In this document: one piece after another, positions 6,889-31,622 of the stretch
Position numbering within the stretch: the first letter of the stretch is position 1
Layout: each line of letters starts with the position of its first letter
IMG/VR virus record: IMGVR_UViG_3300022750_000006
Coordinates: 1-42,414 of that record
Source: a virus
DNA length: 42,414 nt
Strand: one strand, 5' to 3'
The notes under the pieces: generated by a model
Database searches by the model: none
What the model was told of the DNA's origin: nothing
Seen by the model: the letters and a program-made list of their open reading frames with translations, nothing else
Program-made: the position numbers and the translations under genes

Positions 6889-7328
6889 ACGCAACGCCCG
6901 AGGCCAGCACCTCGGACACGAAGGCGCCGCCGGAGAAGCCCCGGCGCGACACGATCGAGGCCAGCGGCTTGCCGCTGGAGCTACCCCCGGTGTCTTGGGG
7001 GCGTGACCTGTTGGACTACCTGTGGGAGATAGGCCCGACCAAGAAGGACGGGCCGATTGAAGCGGTCGATTTGGTGCACTGGGAGCACCTGCTTGGTATA
7101 GAATGGCAACCGTACCAGTCGCGGCTGCTGATCAAATTGTCCAAGGCGTATTTGGGGGAATCGTTCGCCGCGACGAAGCGCGAAGCACCTTGCCCATGGC
7201 CTGAGTTCGAATCGAAATGGCGGTGGGCGCGGAACCAAAAAGCGGAGAAGTCCCTCGACCGCGAAGAACGGCGCCTGGAGCGCAAGGCCAAGAAACTGGA
7301 GAAAACGGGCAATGACAGTCGCAGCTGA
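6831..7328 (+). CDS. Tail chaperone extension (gpT part of the G-T frameshift product)
   Basis: This frame has no good start of its own. It is reached by the -1 shift at 6825-6831, fusing the first 130 chaperone residues to about 165 more. The extension starts LARASDDLHRFVRFAAWLNA, has a proline-rich linker, then a conserved-looking block (VSWGRDLLDYLWEIGP, EHLLGIEWQPYQSRL) and a strongly basic end rich in E, R and K. In lambda-like phages the T part recruits the tape measure to the tail initiator. The end overlaps the tape-measure start by 17 bases. Confidence 0.85.
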   Translation, partial: LLARASDDLHRFVRFAAWLNATPEASTSDTKAPPEKPRRDTIEASGLPLELPPVSWGRDLLDYLWEIGPTKKDGPIEAVDLVHWEHLLGIEWQPYQSRLLIKLSKAYLGESFAATKREAPCPWPEFESKWRWARNQKAEKSLDREERRLERKAKKLEKTGNDSRS

Positions 7329-10300
7329 TGTAGAGATTCGCCTTCGCGCTGACATTGCCCGACTCCGGCAAGACCTCAACGACGGCCGCCGGGAAACCCG
7401 TGCGGCTTTCGCGGCGATGTCCGCCAGCGCAGAGGCGTTCAAGGACGTGCTGAAAGGCTTGGCCGGCGGTCTCTCCATCGGGGCCTTCGCGGCATTCATC
7501 AAGCAAAGCATCGACGCCGCCGACGCGCTCAACGATTTGAGCGTGCGCACCCGCGTGGCGATTGAGGATCTCGCGGGCCTTGCCTACGGGGCCAAACTCT
7601 CCGACACCCAGCTCGAAGGGGTGGGGGCGTCCATCACCAAGCTTGCGCAGAACATCGGCAAGGACGGCGCTAAGTTCCGCGAGCTGGGCATCACCGCCAC
7701 CGAACCGCTCGAAGCGTTCAAGCAGCTTTCCGACATCTTCAAGAATATCCAAGACCCCCAACAGCGCGCGGCCTTCGGCGCCGAAGTGCTGGGAAAGTCG
7801 TGGCAAGAGGCGGCCGTCTTGCTCGACAACGGTGCCGCCGGCATCGACGCGCTGATCGGCAAGGGTAAAGAACTGTCCGGCATCACCGAGCAGGTCGCCG
7901 CCGACGCGGGCGCGTTCAACGACAAGATCGACGAACTGGGCTTTGCCGCTCAGGGTCTCGGCACGCGCATCGCCGCCAGCCTCTTGCCGGTGCTGACCGT
8001 GCTTGCGGACGACTTCGCCACCAACGGCAAGGAGCTGGATAACGCGGCGGATAAATTCGCCCCATTGAACGAGATCCTGCGGGTGCTGATCATCACCGCC
8101 GGAAACGTATCTTTCGTGATCAAGACCGTCGCCACCGAGATCGGCGTGTGGGCGGCGCAGATAGGACAGTTCTTTAGCGCGGTCGGGCAGTTCGCCAATC
8201 TTGACATCTCGGGGGGCCTGCAGACGTTGAAAGGTGCCTTTGGCGAGGGCGGGATCGGCGACCAGGCGGCGGCAGACGCGGATAAAGCGCGCGCCGCCTT
8301 CGACGTGTGGGAAAAGAAGTGGGTTGACCTCGGTACCACGGCGGCGGCCCAAGTCGCGCCGGTCAAGGACGCCGGCGACCTGATCGCGGACAACCTAATC
8401 AAGGCCGCAACCGCCGTCAAGGTGGCCACCTTCCTGAACGCGGGCGAGATCGACGCCGCGCGCAAGAAGTCCGCCGACCAAGCCGCAGCCGCAGCGGCCA
8501 AGGAACAAAGCGCCTATGCGGGCCTGATCGCATCGATCAAAGAGAAGATGGCCGCCGACCAGTTGGAGATCGACGGCGGCGACGCACTGACCGATTCGCA
8601 GAAAGCGCGCATCAAGCTCGATGAGGAACTGGCCGCCGGCAAGATCGTGCTGACCAAGGAGCACATCAAGGAAGTGCGCGCGCTGCTCGATAACGCGCAG
8701 GCGCTGGAGAAGAACGCCGCCGCCGCCAAGCAGGTGCGCGCCGCCGTCGCCGCACTGGCTGACGAGCGAGACGCCAACTACACCGCACTGGTGGCCGAAG
8801 CCGCCGCGAACGAGGACTTGGTGGCCGTCTACGGCAAGACCAAGATGGAGATCGCACGGATGACGCTGGCGCGCGACGAGGATCGGCTGTCGCAGCGCGC
8901 CGCGCTGGACCTGAGCGAGGACACCGTGGCGCAGTTGGAGCGCGAGATCGAAGCGCGCAAGCGCAACATCGCCGCCATGGGCAACCTTGAAGTGCTGGAC
9001 AAACAGAAGAAAGCCAGCGACGACGCGGCCGCCGCGCAGGTGGCGTTCTGGAAAAGCATAGACGATACCGCGCACTCGACGTTCGTCTCGATCCTCGACG
9101 GCAGCAAGGACACCGCCACGCGCTTGAAGGACACCTTCAAGAATATCTTCTTCGATTGGCTGTACCAGATGACGATCAAGAAGTGGCTGATCAACATCAG
9201 CACCACGTCCAGCGGCGTAGGCGATATCGCCACGGCATTGAGCGGCGGGGCTTCGTCTGGCGGTGCGGCCAGCGGCGTCAGCCTGATCAACGCGGGCAAA
9301 TCGATCTACGACGGTTTTACATCGGGCTTCGCCGGCGCGGGCGGCGCACTGGGCGGCTACGTCACCACGCTGGGGAATCTATTCGGCTCGTCGGCCACCT
9401 CGGCATTCGGCGCCGGCATGGGCCTGACCAGCACACAGGCCGCCAATGCCGCCGCCGCCTACAACGCGGCCGGCATGGCCAGTACCGGCTCGGCGATCAG
9501 CAGCGGCTCGGCCGTGGGCGCCGGCGTCGGTATCTTCGCCGGCGCGGCGGGTGGCTACCTCGGCGGCAACCTGATCTCCGGCCAGTACGGCAGCAAGAAT
9601 ACCGTCGCCGCCGGCACCGCCATCGGTGCGGCGATCGGCAGCATCGTGCCCGTCGTCGGTACCGCACTGGGCGCGCTGATCGGTGGGCTGCTCGGCGGCG
9701 TCGCCAATCGTCTGTTCGGCATGGGCGAGAAGAAGGTACAGAGCACGATCATCGACGGCTCGCTCACCGCGACCGGCGCGACCGGCAACAACATCAGTAC
9801 CTGGACGCAGAAGGGCGGCTGGTTCCGCAGCGACAAGAAGGGCACCGACAGCACCGCGCTCTCGAGCGAGCAGTCGGCCGCGTTCTCGTCCACCTATAAG
9901 GCCATCCTCGACGTGTCCAAGGTGCTGGGCGACACCATCGGCGCGGACACCTCCGCGCTGTCGACCCGCGTGCAGAAACTGAGCATCGATCTGACCGGAT
10001 TGGCGACCGACTCCGACAAGCTCGGCGCCATCACCAAGTTCTTCGAAGGCGTCGCCGACAGCATCGCCGTGGAACTGGTGCCGAACCTGACCAAGTTCCA
10101 AAAAGAAGGCGAGTCGCTCAGCGTGACGATGGAGCGCATCGTCAGCAACTACACCAGCCTCGACACCATGCTCGCCGCTGTGGGCACCTCGTTCGGCGCG
10201 GTCGGCGCCGGCAGCATCGCCGCGCGTGAAGCCTTCATCGCGGTCAACGGTGGCCTGACGGCACTGGGTAGTGGTCTGTCCTACTTCCAGCAGAATTTCT

Positions 10301-11829
10301 TGACCGAAGCCGAGCAACTGGCCCCAGTGCAGAAGCAGCTGACCGATGCGCTCAAGTCGATGGGCGTGGCGGGCCTGACCACCAACGACCAGTTCAAAAC
10401 CTATCTGCTGGGCCTGGACAAGACGACCGAGGCCGGCGCGACCATGTTCGCCCAGCTGCTCGCCCTGGCCCCGGCCTTCAACGAGATCACCAAGGCCACC
10501 GAGGCGGCGGCCAAGGCTGCGGCGGACGAAGCCAAGGCCAAGGCGCAAGCGGAGGCCGAGATCGCCGCCGCCCAGGTCAAGGCCGCGCAGGAAGTAGCGG
10601 CAGCACTGGCAGCGACGAACAAAGGCTATCAGGACCAGATCGACGTTATCCTCGCCGCGCGCGGTGGCGAGGCAGCCGTGCGCGCGCTGGAGATCGAGGG
10701 CATGGACGCCAGCACCGTGGCGCTGTACGACCGCTTGGCCGCGCTGAAGGCGGAAGAGAAGGCTACCGCCGACGCCGCGCAGGCCGCCAAGGATCTGGCC
10801 ACCGCGCAAATGCAGGAAGTCAACGCCCTGATCTCCGCGATCAGCGCGGCGTACAACGACCTGAAAACCGTGGTCGACGCGCAGAAGACCGCCGCCAAGA
10901 CCGCGCTTGATGCAGCGCTTGCCGCCATCAACGACAGCATCACGGCGGTGACGACGAAGATCGGCAATCTCAAATCGCTGTCCGACGCCCTGGCCGCGCC
11001 GGTCACAGCCGTGCGCAGCGCGCAGCAGAATGTGGCCTCCTACGGCGCGGCGCGCGCCCAGGTGGTGGCGGCCATCGCAATCGCCAAGGCGAGCGGCGTG
11101 CTGCCGTCTGCCGACAGCCTGAAGGATGCGCTCTCCGCGCTGGGCAGCAACAGCACCGACCGCTACGGCAGCATGGCCGACTACCTGCGCGACCAGGCCG
11201 CCGCCGGCCGGGACATCAAAGAGCTGGGCGCGATCACCGACGGGCAGCTGACCGTGGCCGAGAAGACGCTGCTCGCCTTGCAAGACCAGAAGACCGCGAC
11301 GCAGCGGGCCTACGACATGCAGATCGCGCGCCTCGATGCGATCCTGGAAGAACAGCGCAAGGCCGTGGCGATCGCCACAGGCACCTCGGCGTCGCTCAAC
11401 TCGTTGCCCGCCGCACTGGCCGCACTGGCCGAAGCAATCGCCGCGCTCAAGGGTGCCGCCGCAACCAACCCGCTCGCGGCCGAAACCGGCAACATCGGCG
11501 CCATCGAGAATCTGTATAGCACCCTGCTGGGGCGCAATGCGGACGCCGCTGGACTGCAGTTCTACCTCGACGAGATCAAGAAGGGCACCAGCTGGGACGC
11601 CATCAAGCAGGGTTTCCTCAATAGCCCCGAGTATCTGCAAAACCAGAACAGCGGCGCCAACACGGTGGCCGAGCTGCGGGTGATGAATGCGCGCATGGCC
11701 AACGTGGAGGCGGACATCGCGCGCACAGCGAACAGCACCAGCAGCAGCGCCAGTTCGGGCGCGCGCCTGGCGCAGCAATTCGACCAAGTATCTGCCGGCG
11801 GCAACGCCCTTTTGACGGAACCAGCATGA
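7312..11829 (+). CDS. Tape measure protein
   Basis: At 1,505 residues this is by far the longest gene. Features are a helical N-terminus with coiled-coil character, a tape-measure block at residues 70-230 (DLSVRTRVAIEDLAGLAYGA, GITATEPLEAFKQLSDIF), glycine/alanine-rich hydrophobic segments around 640-805, and long alanine-rich coiled coils at about 1060-1340. Near residues 1396-1443 is a DUF4214-like segment (YSTLLGRNADAAGLQFYLDEI). The protein sets tail length and is threaded through the tube. At about 0.15 nm per helical residue it predicts a tail of roughly 200 nm or more. It overlaps the chaperone extension upstream and the next gene downstream (ATGA). Confidence 0.95.
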   Translation: MTVAADVEIRLRADIARLRQDLNDGRRETRAAFAAMSASAEAFKDVLKGLAGGLSIGAFAAFIKQSIDAADALNDLSVRTRVAIEDLAGLAYGAKLSDTQLEGVGASITKLAQNIGKDGAKFRELGITATEPLEAFKQLSDIFKNIQDPQQRAAFGAEVLGKSWQEAAVLLDNGAAGIDALIGKGKELSGITEQVAADAGAFNDKIDELGFAAQGLGTRIAASLLPVLTVLADDFATNGKELDNAADKFAPLNEILRVLIITAGNVSFVIKTVATEIGVWAAQIGQFFSAVGQFANLDISGGLQTLKGAFGEGGIGDQAAADADKARAAFDVWEKKWVDLGTTAAAQVAPVKDAGDLIADNLIKAATAVKVATFLNAGEIDAARKKSADQAAAAAAKEQSAYAGLIASIKEKMAADQLEIDGGDALTDSQKARIKLDEELAAGKIVLTKEHIKEVRALLDNAQALEKNAAAAKQVRAAVAALADERDANYTALVAEAAANEDLVAVYGKTKMEIARMTLARDEDRLSQRAALDLSEDTVAQLEREIEARKRNIAAMGNLEVLDKQKKASDDAAAAQVAFWKSIDDTAHSTFVSILDGSKDTATRLKDTFKNIFFDWLYQMTIKKWLINISTTSSGVGDIATALSGGASSGGAASGVSLINAGKSIYDGFTSGFAGAGGALGGYVTTLGNLFGSSATSAFGAGMGLTSTQAANAAAAYNAAGMASTGSAISSGSAVGAGVGIFAGAAGGYLGGNLISGQYGSKNTVAAGTAIGAAIGSIVPVVGTALGALIGGLLGGVANRLFGMGEKKVQSTIIDGSLTATGATGNNISTWTQKGGWFRSDKKGTDSTALSSEQSAAFSSTYKAILDVSKVLGDTIGADTSALSTRVQKLSIDLTGLATDSDKLGAITKFFEGVADSIAVELVPNLTKFQKEGESLSVTMERIVSNYTSLDTMLAAVGTSFGAVGAGSIAAREAFIAVNGGLTALGSGLSYFQQNFLTEAEQLAPVQKQLTDALKSMGVAGLTTNDQFKTYLLGLDKTTEAGATMFAQLLALAPAFNEITKATEAAAKAAADEAKAKAQAEAEIAAAQVKAAQEVAAALAATNKGYQDQIDVILAARGGEAAVRALEIEGMDASTVALYDRLAALKAEEKATADAAQAAKDLATAQMQEVNALISAISAAYNDLKTVVDAQKTAAKTALDAALAAINDSITAVTTKIGNLKSLSDALAAPVTAVRSAQQNVASYGAARAQVVAAIAIAKASGVLPSADSLKDALSALGSNSTDRYGSMADYLRDQAAAGRDIKELGAITDGQLTVAEKTLLALQDQKTATQRAYDMQIARLDAILEEQRKAVAIATGTSASLNSLPAALAALAEAIAALKGAAATNPLAAETGNIGAIENLYSTLLGRNADAAGLQFYLDEIKKGTSWDAIKQGFLNSPEYLQNQNSGANTVAELRVMNARMANVEADIARTANSTSSSASSGARLAQQFDQVSAGGNALLTEPA

Positions 11830-23580: not shown

Positions 23581-25827
23581 TCAATCCTTCCGGTATCGAT
23601 ACGCCTCGAAGCCGGCCGCCGCCAGTGGCAAACCCTCGGCCCAGTCGGGCGCCTCGGCCATGAGTTCGGCCAGGTGCTCGGCGTTGTACTGCGGCTCGTC
23701 GGGCGCCTCGGCCAGAATCTCGTCGTGGATGGTCAGCACGATCTGGTAGCCGGCCTTTTCGATCGCCACCATGCTCGACGCCATCACGTCGCGCGCGACT
23801 GCTTGCGTTATGTTTTCGACAATTTTTCCGGAATATGTGTCGATGCGGCCCCACTTCCGGCTGTACTGATTCACCCCGGCGTAGGTGATTTTCGTCCGGC
23901 CGCCCTCGCACGCCGGCTCCTGGCCTTGGCATGCGTAGCATAATTCACGGTGCGCCACGCTTGGGGGCTCTTCGCCTTGCCAGCCGCCGACCAGCACTGT
24001 GTGGGTGCCGCCGCACGCCGCACATTCGCCGGCGGAATCGACCTCAAAATTGCGCTTTTTCTTCTCGGCTTCCAGCTTCGGCGCCGGGTAGCAAAGCGCA
24101 CGGCCTGAGGGCAGCACGATGCGCAGCCAGGCGCCGTCGCGGCGGATCTTGAGCATGCGCACCTGCACGGTGCTGCTCGGCGTGCTGATGGCCTCGCGCA
24201 CCGCCGTGTCGACGTCGCGCCACAGCTGCACCACGTTAGCGTGGGCGTCGCGCCAGCCGAGTTTCAGCGACTCGCATACCAGCCAGGCGCGATCGGACAG
24301 TCCGAGCAGCGCGGCGGGGTCGCGCCCCTTGCTGCGGTGCCAGTCGAGCATAATGTTGGCTTGACCCCACACATTGCCGGGGATCGAGCTTTGCGCGCTG
24401 TTGGCCAGTTCTTCCAGGTCGATGCCATAGCCGGCCGCGAAGGTGACGAACGCGCCCACCCCGCCCTCGTAGCCCAGGGCGAGTTCTTGAACCTTGCCTT
24501 TTTGTCTATCCGCTTTGCTAACAGTTTTCGGGTCTACCCCGAACGACTTCGCATAGGACAAAATGTACAGGTCCAGTCCGGTGCCCGCGTCGTAGTCGCG
24601 GAACGCCTTGAGCTTCCAGGTCTCACCCGCCAGCCAGGCCAGCACCCGACCCTCGATGTTGGACAAGTCGGCCACCACCAGCTTCTTGCCGGCCGGCGCG
24701 GTGATGCAGCCACGAATGGCGTTGCTCGTCAGCTGCATCACGTTGTCGTAGAGCATATCGGCGATGCCGGCCTTCAGCGCGTCAATGCCCAGTTCGATGT
24801 CCGGGTTCTTCATAGTTGGCCGAGGTAGATTATCCGGCTGGAATAGCCGGCCCGCCCAGCGGCCGGTGCGTGCGGCGCCGCAGTATTGCTTCGTGCCCCG
24901 CAGCCGGCCGTCGCTGCTCACGCAGTTCATCAGCGCCGTGTACTTGCTGGTGCTGGTGGTGGTGGCCTGCAGGCGGATGCGCAGCAGTTCGCGCAAGCCC
25001 TCGGGCAGCTCGGGGTCGGCGATGCGCCGCTCCAAGGTGGACTTCTGCATGTCGGGCAGATCGACGCCGTACTCGGTCAGAATGTGCAGCATCATGGCGT
25101 CGCGCTTGGTCGCGCTCTCCACCTCGCCGGACGTCATATCGAACGTCTGCTCGCGCAGCGCCACCTGGGCGACGTCCACCGCCGCGACAGCAGCGCGCGC
25201 CAGATCGATGTCCATGCACATGCCGCGCCGGTTGATGGTCTGGTCGACGTGGAACACCGCGCGCTCCCCGACCAGGGCGCAATTCCATTTCGGCATGCGC
25301 TTGTAGCACTCGCGCATGGCGACGATATCGAGCGAGGCGTAATCCTTGAAGCGCGCCCACTCGACCGGGTGCGTGGCAGCAGTGGCGCGTCCGCGCTTGA
25401 GGTTGCCGGCCGGCGGGATACAAAACAGGCGAATCAAATCCTTGCCGGCCTTGTCCTTGGCCTTGTCGCTCGGCACACCCAGCACCTCGCACAAGGCCCC
25501 TAGCGAACCGGGCAGACTGTGCTGTAGCGCTTGGACCATGGTATCGTGCAGACGCGCCAGTGGAATGTCGATGCCGAGCGCCACCGCCAGGATGGTGGTG
25601 TCGAACATCGAGCCGTTGTGCCACACGGTGGTGATCTCGTCGTCGACGAGGATCGCCGCTAGGTCGTCGGGCATCGGCGCGCCGCTGGTCAGATCCCACA
25701 CCTTGACCGGGCCATCTTCCAACGCATAGGCCCACAGCAGCACCTCGGCGCCCTCGGCGTAGGCCCACGCGCCGTTGCGGATCGGGACAGTGGAGAAGGT
25801 TTCGAGGTCGTGCCAGGAAAGTTTCAT
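23581..25827 (-). CDS. Family A DNA polymerase with 3'-5' exonuclease domain
   Basis: The 748-residue enzyme should replicate phage DNA. Exonuclease motifs are WHDLETFS (ExoI), VWHNGSMFDTTIL (ExoII) and KDYASLDIVAM (ExoIII). Polymerase motifs are A VVADLSNIEGRVLAWL near residue 385, B-like KGKVQELALGYEGG near 445, and C LTIHDEILAE near 700. Between B and C, residues about 600-645 hold a cysteine-rich insert (CAACGG, CYACQGQEPAC) that looks like a zinc ribbon. The ATG at 25827 overlaps the upstream stop, and a GTG one codon earlier is also possible. There is no 5'-3' exonuclease domain, which is usual for phage enzymes. Confidence 0.95.
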   Translation of the reverse strand: MKLSWHDLETFSTVPIRNGAWAYAEGAEVLLWAYALEDGPVKVWDLTSGAPMPDDLAAILVDDEITTVWHNGSMFDTTILAVALGIDIPLARLHDTMVQALQHSLPGSLGALCEVLGVPSDKAKDKAGKDLIRLFCIPPAGNLKRGRATAATHPVEWARFKDYASLDIVAMRECYKRMPKWNCALVGERAVFHVDQTINRRGMCMDIDLARAAVAAVDVAQVALREQTFDMTSGEVESATKRDAMMLHILTEYGVDLPDMQKSTLERRIADPELPEGLRELLRIRLQATTTSTSKYTALMNCVSSDGRLRGTKQYCGAARTGRWAGRLFQPDNLPRPTMKNPDIELGIDALKAGIADMLYDNVMQLTSNAIRGCITAPAGKKLVVADLSNIEGRVLAWLAGETWKLKAFRDYDAGTGLDLYILSYAKSFGVDPKTVSKADRQKGKVQELALGYEGGVGAFVTFAAGYGIDLEELANSAQSSIPGNVWGQANIMLDWHRSKGRDPAALLGLSDRAWLVCESLKLGWRDAHANVVQLWRDVDTAVREAISTPSSTVQVRMLKIRRDGAWLRIVLPSGRALCYPAPKLEAEKKKRNFEVDSAGECAACGGTHTVLVGGWQGEEPPSVAHRELCYACQGQEPACEGGRTKITYAGVNQYSRKWGRIDTYSGKIVENITQAVARDVMASSMVAIEKAGYQIVLTIHDEILAEAPDEPQYNAEHLAELMAEAPDWAEGLPLAAAGFEAYRYRKD

Positions 25828-26102
25828 CACGCCCCGTCCTTTGCCTGCTGGTAGGCTTGGCCTGGCAGTGCCGCTTTTTCTTCAGCGGTCAGAAGGTAGT
25901 GGTACAACGCCGGCAGTTCGTGTGGCTTGGCCCATTCAAAGCACGGCCGTCCGTTGCTGTATATGCGGGCGCCCCGGTGCGGGCCGAAACCGCACACCTG
26001 CGGGATGCGAATTTGCAGGCCGTGCTTTTTAGTTGTGCGGCGGTCACCGGTCTTCGGCTTCGCGCGCGCGGGTGCGCTGCTGTAGTGGATGGTAAGGTTC
26101 AT
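25827..26102 (-). CDS. Hypothetical basic protein (91 aa)
   Basis: The protein lies directly upstream of the polymerase and overlaps it. It is basic in the first half (ARAKPKTGDRRTTKKHGLQI) and has an aromatic segment (ALYHYLLTAEEKAALPG). The start overlaps the previous stop. It could be a polymerase accessory by position only. Confidence 0.68.
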   Translation of the reverse strand: MNLTIHYSSAPARAKPKTGDRRTTKKHGLQIRIPQVCGFGPHRGARIYSNGRPCFEWAKPHELPALYHYLLTAEEKAALPGQAYQQAKDGA

Positions 26103-30133: not shown

Positions 30134-31258
30134 ATGGTGATGTATAACGAGATCAACAAGTACATGGCGCAGTGGCTGCGCAACCTGATAGCCGCTGGCC
30201 TGATCGCCGACGGTGTCGTGTGGGAATGCAGTATCGAAGATATCAAACCGGAGGATCTTAATGGATTTACACAGTGTCACTTCTTCGCCGGACTCGGCGG
30301 ATGGAGCCTGGCTCTCCGAGCTGCTGGGGTCCGGGACGACGAGCGCGTCTGGTCTGCCAGTTGCCCGTGCCAGCCTTTCAGCGCGGCAGGCGCGGGAGCA
30401 GGGTTTGCTGATGAGCGGCACCTCTGGCCGGTCGTCGAACACCTCGCCCGCGAGTGCCGCCCTGCAAGAATCGTTGGTGAGCAGGTTGCAAGCCGCGACG
30501 CAGAGCCTTGGCTCGACCTTGTACAAGATGACATGGAAGCCTTGGGCTATGCCTTCGGGGCGGTCGCGTTTCCGTCTGCGGGCGTCGGTGCTCCGCACAT
30601 CAGAGACCGCACGTACTGGTTGGCCGACGCCGATCGCGAACGAAGCAAAGGCGGGCTTGCACTGCGCGAACCAGGTGACGGTTTCAATGGCGGCGCAGCT
30701 GGCCGGCTGGGTGACGCCCACCACCAGAGACTGGAAGGACAGCGGCGCGGACATCAGACCGAGGGCGGACGGGTCGGAGCGGTTCGACCAGCTGCCGCGC
30801 CAGGCGAATCTGGCGGGCTGGCCGACACCAATGGCCGGGACGCCGGCGCAGAACGGCAACAACGCGGCGGGGGACAACGACAGCAGCCGCAAGACGGTGG
30901 ACTTGTGCGGATGGCCGACGCCAGTAGCGAACGACTCGACGGGTTCGACCCATTGCTACAGTGGGACGGCACCCGACGGATCGCGGGGCTTGGCGTGGAA
31001 GCTCTCGGGCGCGGCCCGGTTGCTGGGTTCTGGCGAGATTCTGACTGGCTCCGCTGCCGGGATGATGGGTCTGCCGCCCGGGTGGGACGAGGCCGCGCCG
31101 ATTGGCATGCCCCCGCCGGTAAAGAAGGCCAAGGCCACCGCGCCGGGCGTCTCGCCGGATACGGCAACGCGATCAACATCGAAGCGGCGCGCATCTTCAT
31201 CGAATGTGCCTTCGGAACTGTCCGACCTGTTGTAGAAGACCTCAGCGATTTAATTTAA
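30134..31258 (+). CDS. C5 cytosine DNA methyltransferase
   Basis: The ATG at 30134 (AAAGGAA upstream) gives 374 residues. An N-terminal helical part (WLRNLIAAGLIADGVVWECS) precedes the catalytic motifs: I CHFFAGLGGWSLAL, IV SCPCQPFSAAG with catalytic Cys79, VI RIVGEQVASRD, VIII HIRDRTYWLAD, and X AGYGNAINIEAA. The enzyme probably methylates phage DNA to escape host restriction. No cognate endonuclease is visible. The target-recognition region is a series of LADA-like units separated by polar spacers. A long second ORF overlaps nearly the whole gene. Confidence 0.9.
   Translation: MVMYNEINKYMAQWLRNLIAAGLIADGVVWECSIEDIKPEDLNGFTQCHFFAGLGGWSLALRAAGVRDDERVWSASCPCQPFSAAGAGAGFADERHLWPVVEHLARECRPARIVGEQVASRDAEPWLDLVQDDMEALGYAFGAVAFPSAGVGAPHIRDRTYWLADADRERSKGGLALREPGDGFNGGAAGRLGDAHHQRLEGQRRGHQTEGGRVGAVRPAAAPGESGGLADTNGRDAGAERQQRGGGQRQQPQDGGLVRMADASSERLDGFDPLLQWDGTRRIAGLGVEALGRGPVAGFWRDSDWLRCRDDGSAARVGRGRADWHAPAGKEGQGHRAGRLAGYGNAINIEAARIFIECAFGTVRPVVEDLSDLI
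30261..31235 (+). CDS. Overlapping ORF nested in the methyltransferase gene (324 aa, GWPTP repeats)
   Basis: In the +1 frame relative to the methyltransferase, ATG at 30261 follows a near-perfect ribosome site (GGAGG, 6 bases spacing) and the frame is open for 324 residues. The product starts MDLHSVTSSPDSADGAWLSE, has YKMTWKPWAMPSGRSRFRLR, and carries four repeat units: TGWPTPIANEAKAG, AGWVTPTTRDWKDSG, AGWPTPMAGTPAQNG and CGWPTPVANDSTG. These are the same bases as the LADA units of the methyltransferase. From memory, similar GWPTP-rich hypothetical proteins occur in phages, which I could not check. High GC makes chance overlapping ORFs common, so translation is unproven. Confidence 0.6.
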   Translation: MDLHSVTSSPDSADGAWLSELLGSGTTSASGLPVARASLSARQAREQGLLMSGTSGRSSNTSPASAALQESLVSRLQAATQSLGSTLYKMTWKPWAMPSGRSRFRLRASVLRTSETARTGWPTPIANEAKAGLHCANQVTVSMAAQLAGWVTPTTRDWKDSGADIRPRADGSERFDQLPRQANLAGWPTPMAGTPAQNGNNAAGDNDSSRKTVDLCGWPTPVANDSTGSTHCYSGTAPDGSRGLAWKLSGAARLLGSGEILTGSAAGMMGLPPGWDEAAPIGMPPPVKKAKATAPGVSPDTATRSTSKRRASSSNVPSELSDLL

Positions 31259-31271
31259 AAGGAGCAACACC

Positions 31272-31622
31272 ATGACCAAGAAACAAACCGGCCTGCAGAT
31301 GGCCATCGCCCACATCGGCCGCCAGCAGGATTTCGGCCGCGCCCTCGGTGCCAGTCCACGCACCGTTCAAGGATGGCTCGCCGCCGACGAACCAGTGCCG
31401 CGCGCCACCAGCGCGGTGGACAAGGCCGTCGAGAAGGCCGGCAGCTGGAACAAGCTGGCCGTCTCGCTGGGCGTCACCCGCCAGGCCGTGGGCCAGTGGC
31501 TGCGCCAGGGCTACGTGCCGCTGGCGCGCGCCAAGGAGATCGAAATGCAATTCGGCATCCCGCGCAACGACCTGGTGTCGCCGAAGGTGCGCAGCTCGAT
31601 GGGTGTCGGGGGTGAGTTGTGA
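31272..31622 (+). CDS. Tandem helix-turn-helix regulator (116 aa)
   Basis: ATG at 31272 follows AAAAGGAGCAACACC. Two HTH units occur in one chain: residues 17-40 (RQQDFGRALGASPRTVQGWL) and 58-80 (WNKLAVSLGVTRQAVGQWLR). The second is followed by VPLARAKEIEMQFGI, as in YdaS/Cro-like proteins. It lies in the rightward operon from the divergent operator region and is the best candidate for the regulator that binds CGCAAG-N6-CTTG sites. A two-headed protein would suit the paired inner and outer half-sites. That link is inference. Confidence 0.82.
   Translation: MTKKQTGLQMAIAHIGRQQDFGRALGASPRTVQGWLAADEPVPRATSAVDKAVEKAGSWNKLAVSLGVTRQAVGQWLRQGYVPLARAKEIEMQFGIPRNDLVSPKVRSSMGVGGEL

Follow-up and report, generated by a model that had tools for sequence, protein, structure and literature searches.

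A conserved reading frame nested in phage C5-cytosine methyltransferase genes, and the probable subunit that it encodes

The locus and its two reading frames

The stretch of DNA analysed here, 42,414 bases long and referred to below as the window, is an IMG/VR virus record that carries a tailed-phage set of genes: portal, terminase, head protein, tape measure and family A DNA polymerase. One of its genes, which we call the outer gene, encodes a C5-cytosine DNA methyltransferase, alpha, that begins at ATG 30134, or alternatively at TTG 30113, and ends at 31258. Within this gene a second frame, in phase +1 relative to the first, is open for 324 codons from an ATG preceded by GGAGG, and would encode a second chain, beta. 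On re-reading the sequence, the original prediction proved accurate in all of this—position, ATG, GGAGG and length—and GTG 30213 offers a possible upstream extension. The four GWPTP-type repeats (GW-x-T-P units) that had been noticed in the nested frame are also present, and the same bases encode LADA-type stretches of the methyltransferase frame. The features of the locus are as follows:

30134–31258, plus strand: outer gene (alpha), C5-cytosine DNA methyltransferase, 374 aa (PF00145, 4e-11; phrog_363, 3e-71; motif matrices; AlphaFold and Foldseek on the homologue L009)
30250–30254, plus strand: GGAGG, candidate Shine–Dalgarno sequence for ATG 30261, 6 nt before that ATG (sequence)
30261–31235, plus strand: nested ORF (beta, long form), 324 aa from ATG (phrog_1008, 6e-26; phrog_31772, 1e-22; tblastn)
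30395–30398, plus strand: GGAG, candidate Shine–Dalgarno sequence for the internal start (sequence; a match at the equivalent site in 115 of 163 loci)
30405–31235, plus strand: nested gene from the internal TTG 30405 (ATG 30411), the part constrained at the protein level (synonymous suppression begins here)
30621–30707, plus strand: GWPTP module 1, of no recurrent type
30708–30818, plus strand: module 2, type A (WVTPTTRDWKDSG...DQLPRQANLAG), the commonest type, 75 copies
30819–30911, plus strand: module 3, type B (WPTPMAGTPAQNGNNAAG..), 30 copies
30912–31019, plus strand: module 4, type G (WPTPVANDSTGSTHCYSG..), 12 copies
31062–31063, plus strand: point at which 42 nt present in L169 and L170 are missing, a deletion that keeps both proteins in frame (sequence comparison)
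31063–31086, plus strand: motif IX-like remnant MMGLPPGW (MGLPPEW in relatives), approximate boundaries (motif matrices, comparison)
31157–31195, plus strand: motif X of the outer frame (GYGNAINIEAARI), approximate boundaries (motif matrices, AlphaFold)

When searched against PHROG profiles, the nested protein matches phrog_1008 and phrog_31772 and the outer protein matches phrog_363, all three labelled 'DNA methyltransferase'. That PHROG families exist for the nested frame means that it has been called as a gene repeatedly in phage genomes. The label that phrog_1008 and phrog_31772 bear is attached to a frame with no methyltransferase domain, and needs revision; it is also silent on these proteins being the other frame of phrog_363 genes.

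Elsewhere in the window, positions 31272–31622 encode a 116-aa protein with YdaS/Cro-type HTH repressor matches in its second half and an HTH-like match in its first. The family A DNA polymerase ORF (23584–25830, minus strand; 749 aa) has a phrog_17 match that begins no earlier than profile position 669 and is spread over 563 positions; it may contain extra internal sequence, such as an intein or insertion. An ORF of 802 aa on the minus strand (9379–11787), antisense to the tape-measure gene (7312–11829), is probably an artefact of GC content.

Conservation of the open frame

The prediction came with the caution that high GC produces many spurious long ORFs, and for this locus taken by itself the caution is fair, since 9% of codon-shuffling trials leave the frame open (p = 0.09; 1.5 stops expected). 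Many long ORFs occur, moreover, in all frames of the window. Across relatives the caution does not hold. By tblastn, the nested protein matches 179 phage records, every one of them at less than 60% identity, and in the first loci fetched, which include N15, epsilon15, BcepC6B and 80 IMG/VR contigs, the nested ORF always occupies the same phase inside the methyltransferase ORF. To avoid selecting on the outcome—an open nested frame—a second set of loci was chosen by methyltransferase protein or frame alone, with a few loci from another search also in the count. The nested frame is open in 160 of these 162 loci, and the remaining two have one late stop; the third frame averages 10.6 stops. Stops in the +1 frame of homologous methyltransferase genes had been named as the observation that would count against dual coding, and the comparison, now made, leaves the prediction standing.

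Over 140 non-redundant loci—near-identical ones having been dropped to reduce phylogenetic non-independence—the +1 frame contains 12 stops, against 361.9 expected from codon shuffling. The third frame of the same loci contains 1531, against 1367.5 expected, and so is not depleted. Among 29 ordinary PF00145 C5-methyltransferase genes, none has an open +1 frame (5–19 stops). The arrangement spans GC contents from 47% to 70%, and in Paenibacillus phages, at 47%, the nested frame is open for more than 200 codons; it is kept, too, in the very diverged methyltransferases L279–L281. Single in-frame stops occur in the outer frame of L057 (2353–3480) and in the nested frame of L082 (2450–3520); these are pseudogenes or sequencing errors.

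The same two-frame arrangement is conserved in hundreds of distantly related phages and prophages, and some of the methyltransferases that nest a second frame are so diverged that only distant motifs remain. No free-standing nested protein was found in phages, plasmids, IMG/VR, GTDB contigs or 398 Pseudomonadota genomes. Sixteen of the 398 genomes are positive, and every nested match in them falls inside the ORF of an outer methyltransferase, with an unchanged phase in each case where the frames could be read. GWPTP-rich proteins had been said to recur beside phage methyltransferases; it is inside the methyltransferase genes that they recur, instead. Two candidates were rejected: L276, as a free-standing nested gene, proved to be a truncated locus, and a match on a Klebsiella aerogenes plasmid, as an EaeI-type system, proved to be a decayed phage-like region.

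Selection on both frames

Divergence at fourfold-degenerate sites of the outer frame was measured between pairs of 71 distinct, codon-aligned loci. It stands at about 0.5–0.75 over the first 80 codons (around 0.65 as a single figure), falls at the internal Shine–Dalgarno sequence and start, and remains at 0.0–0.3 across much of the nested gene, with values of 0.01–0.07 where the modules and the motif IX-like segment lie. The nested gene ends at motif X, and from there the divergence is back at 0.59. Between the window and L178, fourfold sites differ at 20 of 27 positions before the constrained part and at 4 of 27 inside it. In the module stretch, variability at outer-frame codon positions 1, 2 and 3 is 0.42, 0.22 and 0.13, which is the pattern of a gene in the nested frame; the nested frame is therefore the dominant coding frame there. 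In the region of motifs VI–VIII, constraint acts on both frames simultaneously. Both frames are under purifying selection. With the two of them open and conserved, synonymous sites suppressed, and Shine–Dalgarno and start sites conserved as well, the predicted dual coding is strongly supported, and for the family of loci it is near certain.

Where nested translation may start

Two candidate start regions recur among relatives. The upstream one consists of an ATG that precedes the QCH motif by 11 codons in 109 of 163 loci, 87 of the 163 having a Shine–Dalgarno match, and at this Shine–Dalgarno position the rare Arg codon AGG makes up 35% of usage versus 7% elsewhere. The internal one is a TTG 44 codons after the QCH motif in 131 of 163 loci, and its Shine–Dalgarno sequence is often AAGGAG, six bases from the TTG. 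The outer-frame phenylalanine at this internal site is encoded by TTT in 116 loci versus TTC in nine, where TTT accounts for 30% overall. The first 48 codons of the ORF as reported show no amino-acid constraint in relatives, and the constrained part begins near the internal Shine–Dalgarno sequence and start.

At the upstream site, relatives have AAGGAG and an ATG seven codons upstream of the position of the window's ATG 30261; the window lacks these and has GGAGG and its ATG seven codons later, instead, while keeping the internal site. In phage N15, only the internal start lies within the open frame. EBPR siphovirus 2 has an intein-like insertion in motif IV that lies between the two start regions, and only the internal start is usable. 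The ATG with GGAGG is present, as predicted, but it is probably neither the sole nor the essential start. Among relatives, Shine–Dalgarno sequences accompany both the internal TTG/ATG and an upstream ATG, the latter usually at a different position. The insertion in EBPR siphovirus 2 (L261; JF412297, 135–2630) falls inside the PC-QPF of the outer methyltransferase; many stops interrupt the nested frame there, but the constrained part of that frame lies intact downstream.

The outer chain

Alpha is a C5-methyltransferase by its PF00145 match, which lies above the cut-off, and by its motif IV (PCQPFS) and motif X (GYGNA). Motif matrices find motif IV in 100% of homologues, and find motif X as well. 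Motif I is weak by matrix, with the fold present; the matrices for motifs I and VIII fit this subfamily poorly and that for motif VI settled on the wrong 'EN', and all three were left out. Motif IX was not found in alpha, where its matrix scores as it does on shuffled sequence.

In the AlphaFold model of the homologue L009, the catalytic core (residues 1–165) is mostly predicted with pLDDT of about 75–96, and its best solved-structure matches by Foldseek are M.HhaI and M.HaeIII. The motif X helix reaches about 95. Residues 172–248, 77 in all, stand at about 30. Judged by this model and by the matrices, alpha departs from a canonical single-chain enzyme in two respects: it is predicted to lack a folded recognition region, and motif IX is absent.

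The nested chain and its modules

Beta is organized, from its N-terminus, as a predicted helix and beta-hairpin, one to five GW-x-TP modules, and a motif IX-like segment. Our census counted 535 modules, 40 recurrent types and 156 orders in 171 loci, in which 18 pairs of types occur in both orders. In the window the modules run unclassified, A, B, G. The nearest relative, L169, has G in common with it but a different first module. In phage and restriction–modification enzymes, target-recognition domains are exchanged in this way at the recognition position. In three minimal forms (L256, L260 and L278) the outer protein is only about 260 aa long and the GWPTP array is absent or nearly so; the nested frame is still open, and ends LMGxPxEW.

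A matrix trained on ordinary motif IX (LTPRECARLMGFPDTF) has as its best window in beta LNPAHSRWLMGLPPEW, or close variants of it, in most members, and the segment lies at a matching relative position in nearly all of them. The match is weak, at p about 0.01 per sequence (0.0005 for L251), and the canonical invariant Arg and Glu are missing. Profile–profile alignment with ordinary methyltransferases picks out that same window only, at a P of 0.22, which is not significant.

Searches of Pfam, NCBIfam, PADLOC and PDB sequences with the nested protein or its alignment gave no convincing match. Modelled alone by AlphaFold, from an input alignment of window and scan loci, beta reaches a pLDDT of 58 and a pTM of 0.27, the helix and hairpin being the only better part, and the model is not good enough for a search by fold. 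Such a result is to be expected of a chain that requires a partner; it can also reflect disorder or a shallow alignment.

The copy in the window

The 42-nt deletion in the window removes most of beta's motif IX-like segment (GGQLNPAHSRWL; GGQLNPAHSRW) together with the overlapping KWRPVEPGTFPLA-type stretch of alpha. Among 178 non-redundant loci, a clean loss of this segment is seen only here. The deletion may have arisen recently, may be a variant that is tolerated, or may be an artefact of assembly; GATG repeats flank it. Since most of the segment is lost, the activity of this particular copy is doubtful, and the window's own enzyme may be inactive or impaired, although the family is real.

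A methyltransferase probably in two parts

We think it likely, at a probability of roughly three in four, that the locus encodes a two-subunit C5-methyltransferase that works as M.EcoHK31I does, with the nested frame encoding the subunit that recognizes the target and provides motif IX. Two chains would then come from a single piece of DNA by way of its two reading frames. Alpha, from the outer frame, would catalyse the reaction and bind the cofactor, and would comprise the catalytic domain (motifs I–VIII) and a C-terminal helix with motif X. The nested +1 frame, from a ribosome-binding site or sites of its own, would give beta: first the predicted helix and beta-hairpin, which overlap alpha's motifs VI–VIII, then the one to five putatively exchangeable modules, and then the motif IX-like segment. 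Beta would supply the target-recognition region and motif IX, the active enzyme would be an assembly of alpha and beta, and its target would change as beta's modules are shuffled. That beta is translated, that it binds alpha and is needed for methylation, and that its modules set specificity, are matters we infer from comparison and modelling. The original prediction envisaged an antirestriction enzyme plus an unknown protein; the nested product is most likely, instead, a subunit of the same methyltransferase, since it is never found alone, its phase is fixed, and it carries the motif IX-like segment.

Beta might be functional and yet not be part of the enzyme—an independent anti-restriction or regulatory protein, for example, that overprints the gene. 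Its coding is real and conserved, which such a protein would share, and it belongs to no Pfam or NCBIfam family and has no convincing match among solved structures, which would suit one. Against this, beta never occurs apart from a C5-methyltransferase, its phase stays constant even where the methyltransferases are very diverged, and the region missing from alpha is exactly the one that beta covers; beta also carries the motif IX-like segment. We regard an independent protein as unlikely. The complementarity of the frames also fits programmed frameshifting, by which they would be joined into one chimera with the outer motifs I–VIII and the nested recognition region and motif IX: what one frame lacks the other has, and programmed frameshifts are well known in phages (review, PMC5009743). 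But the nested frame is constrained over the same 80 or so codons that encode outer motifs VI–VIII and has conserved Shine–Dalgarno and start sites of its own, and motif X is back in the outer frame, so a chimera would need two shifts. This makes frameshifting, to our minds, distinctly improbable.

A functionless ORF, thrown up by high GC and codon bias, is what the window alone might suggest, with its p of 0.09 and its long ORFs in all frames. For the family that explanation is refuted by codon shuffling (12 stops against some 362), by the undepleted third frame, by the ordinary genes (0 of 29 open) and by the phages of 47% GC, as well as by synonymous suppression, and we give it next to no credence. 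Nor do we give appreciably more to the idea that a mobile endonuclease has inserted here and is read in the other frame, on the pattern of phage ShiLan. Out-of-frame HNH ORFs are known inside phage methylases (PMC11855218); in every homologue, however, the nested frame described here runs across conserved catalytic motifs, it matches nothing in Pfam, HNH included, and no relative that lacks the nested frame was found near it.

Many phage methyltransferases that appear to be single proteins are probably two-part, with a hidden part that helps to choose the DNA target. The odds are somewhat better than even, we judge, that these enzymes form a large and ancient class in phages and prophages of Proteobacteria and Firmicutes, their specificity residing in an array of shuffled modules in the hidden +1 frame, where one recombination event swaps modules and the outer protein tolerates the overlap.

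Relation to known systems

M.EcoHK31I (YGGCCR; Lee, Kam and Shaw 1995) is a restriction–modification enzyme, a C5-methyltransferase of two polypeptides and one specificity. Its small chain, of about 176 aa, is reportedly encoded in another frame within the gene for the large chain, of about 309 aa, and both chains are said to be needed in vitro. M.EaeI is said to resemble it. The phage family, too, has its small chain in another frame of the large-chain gene, a likeness of layout and not of compared sequences, and sizes as well as layout agree with the smaller phage-family members. The larger chain of M.EcoHK31I contains motifs I–VIII and X, and only motif IX is in the smaller (PMC3404938); the larger chain of the phage family likewise has motifs I–VIII and X. 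The phage family differs in occurring mainly in phages and prophages and in the variable, shuffled module arrays of its nested frame, and selection suggests that its recognition region lies in beta rather than in alpha, unlike that of M.EcoHK31I.

Multispecific C5-methyltransferases of the Bacillus subtilis phages SPR and phi3T, and HsdS, also have exchangeable target-recognition modules. Those lie in a single methyltransferase chain or in a separate HsdS gene, whereas the modules of the phage family, whose function is a matter of prediction, lie in the nested frame. M.AquI (CYCGRG) is split at the variable region, motifs IX and X both being in the small chain, and is not known to have long nested dual coding. 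Its motifs are naturally divided between two chains (PMC3404938), as is predicted for the phage family, which differs from it in the point of the split and in the long nested overlap. The methylase of phage ShiLan likewise has a second protein in another frame of the gene, an out-of-frame HNH ORF that is a mobile insertion with a homing endonuclease (PMC11855218); the nested gene described here is no insertion, lacks HNH and overlaps catalytic motifs.

The overlap itself has been annotated before. Both genes are recorded in Paenibacillus phage Rani (gp51, 'g50 Internal gene'), in Xanthomonas phage PhiXhv-5, and in Escherichia coli phage K1H (ORF28, 'Mte8-like, similar to Bcep6B, N15 and e15'), in each case without interpretation, selection test or function. 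In the literature searched, no paper that treats the overlap as a class was found.

What it would mean

Should the two-subunit reading be true, the cloning, modelling and annotation of many phage genes for 'DNA cytosine methyltransferase' will have overlooked half of the enzyme, and the specificity of these enzymes would not be predictable from the annotated chain. The overlap would be a very long, same-strand one, widespread in tailed phages and across very diverged methyltransferases, and M.EcoHK31I, a curiosity of 1995, would become an example of a large class. The arrays would amount to a library from which exchangeable recognition modules could be read, and the loci to a natural system in which two proteins evolve in one sequence.
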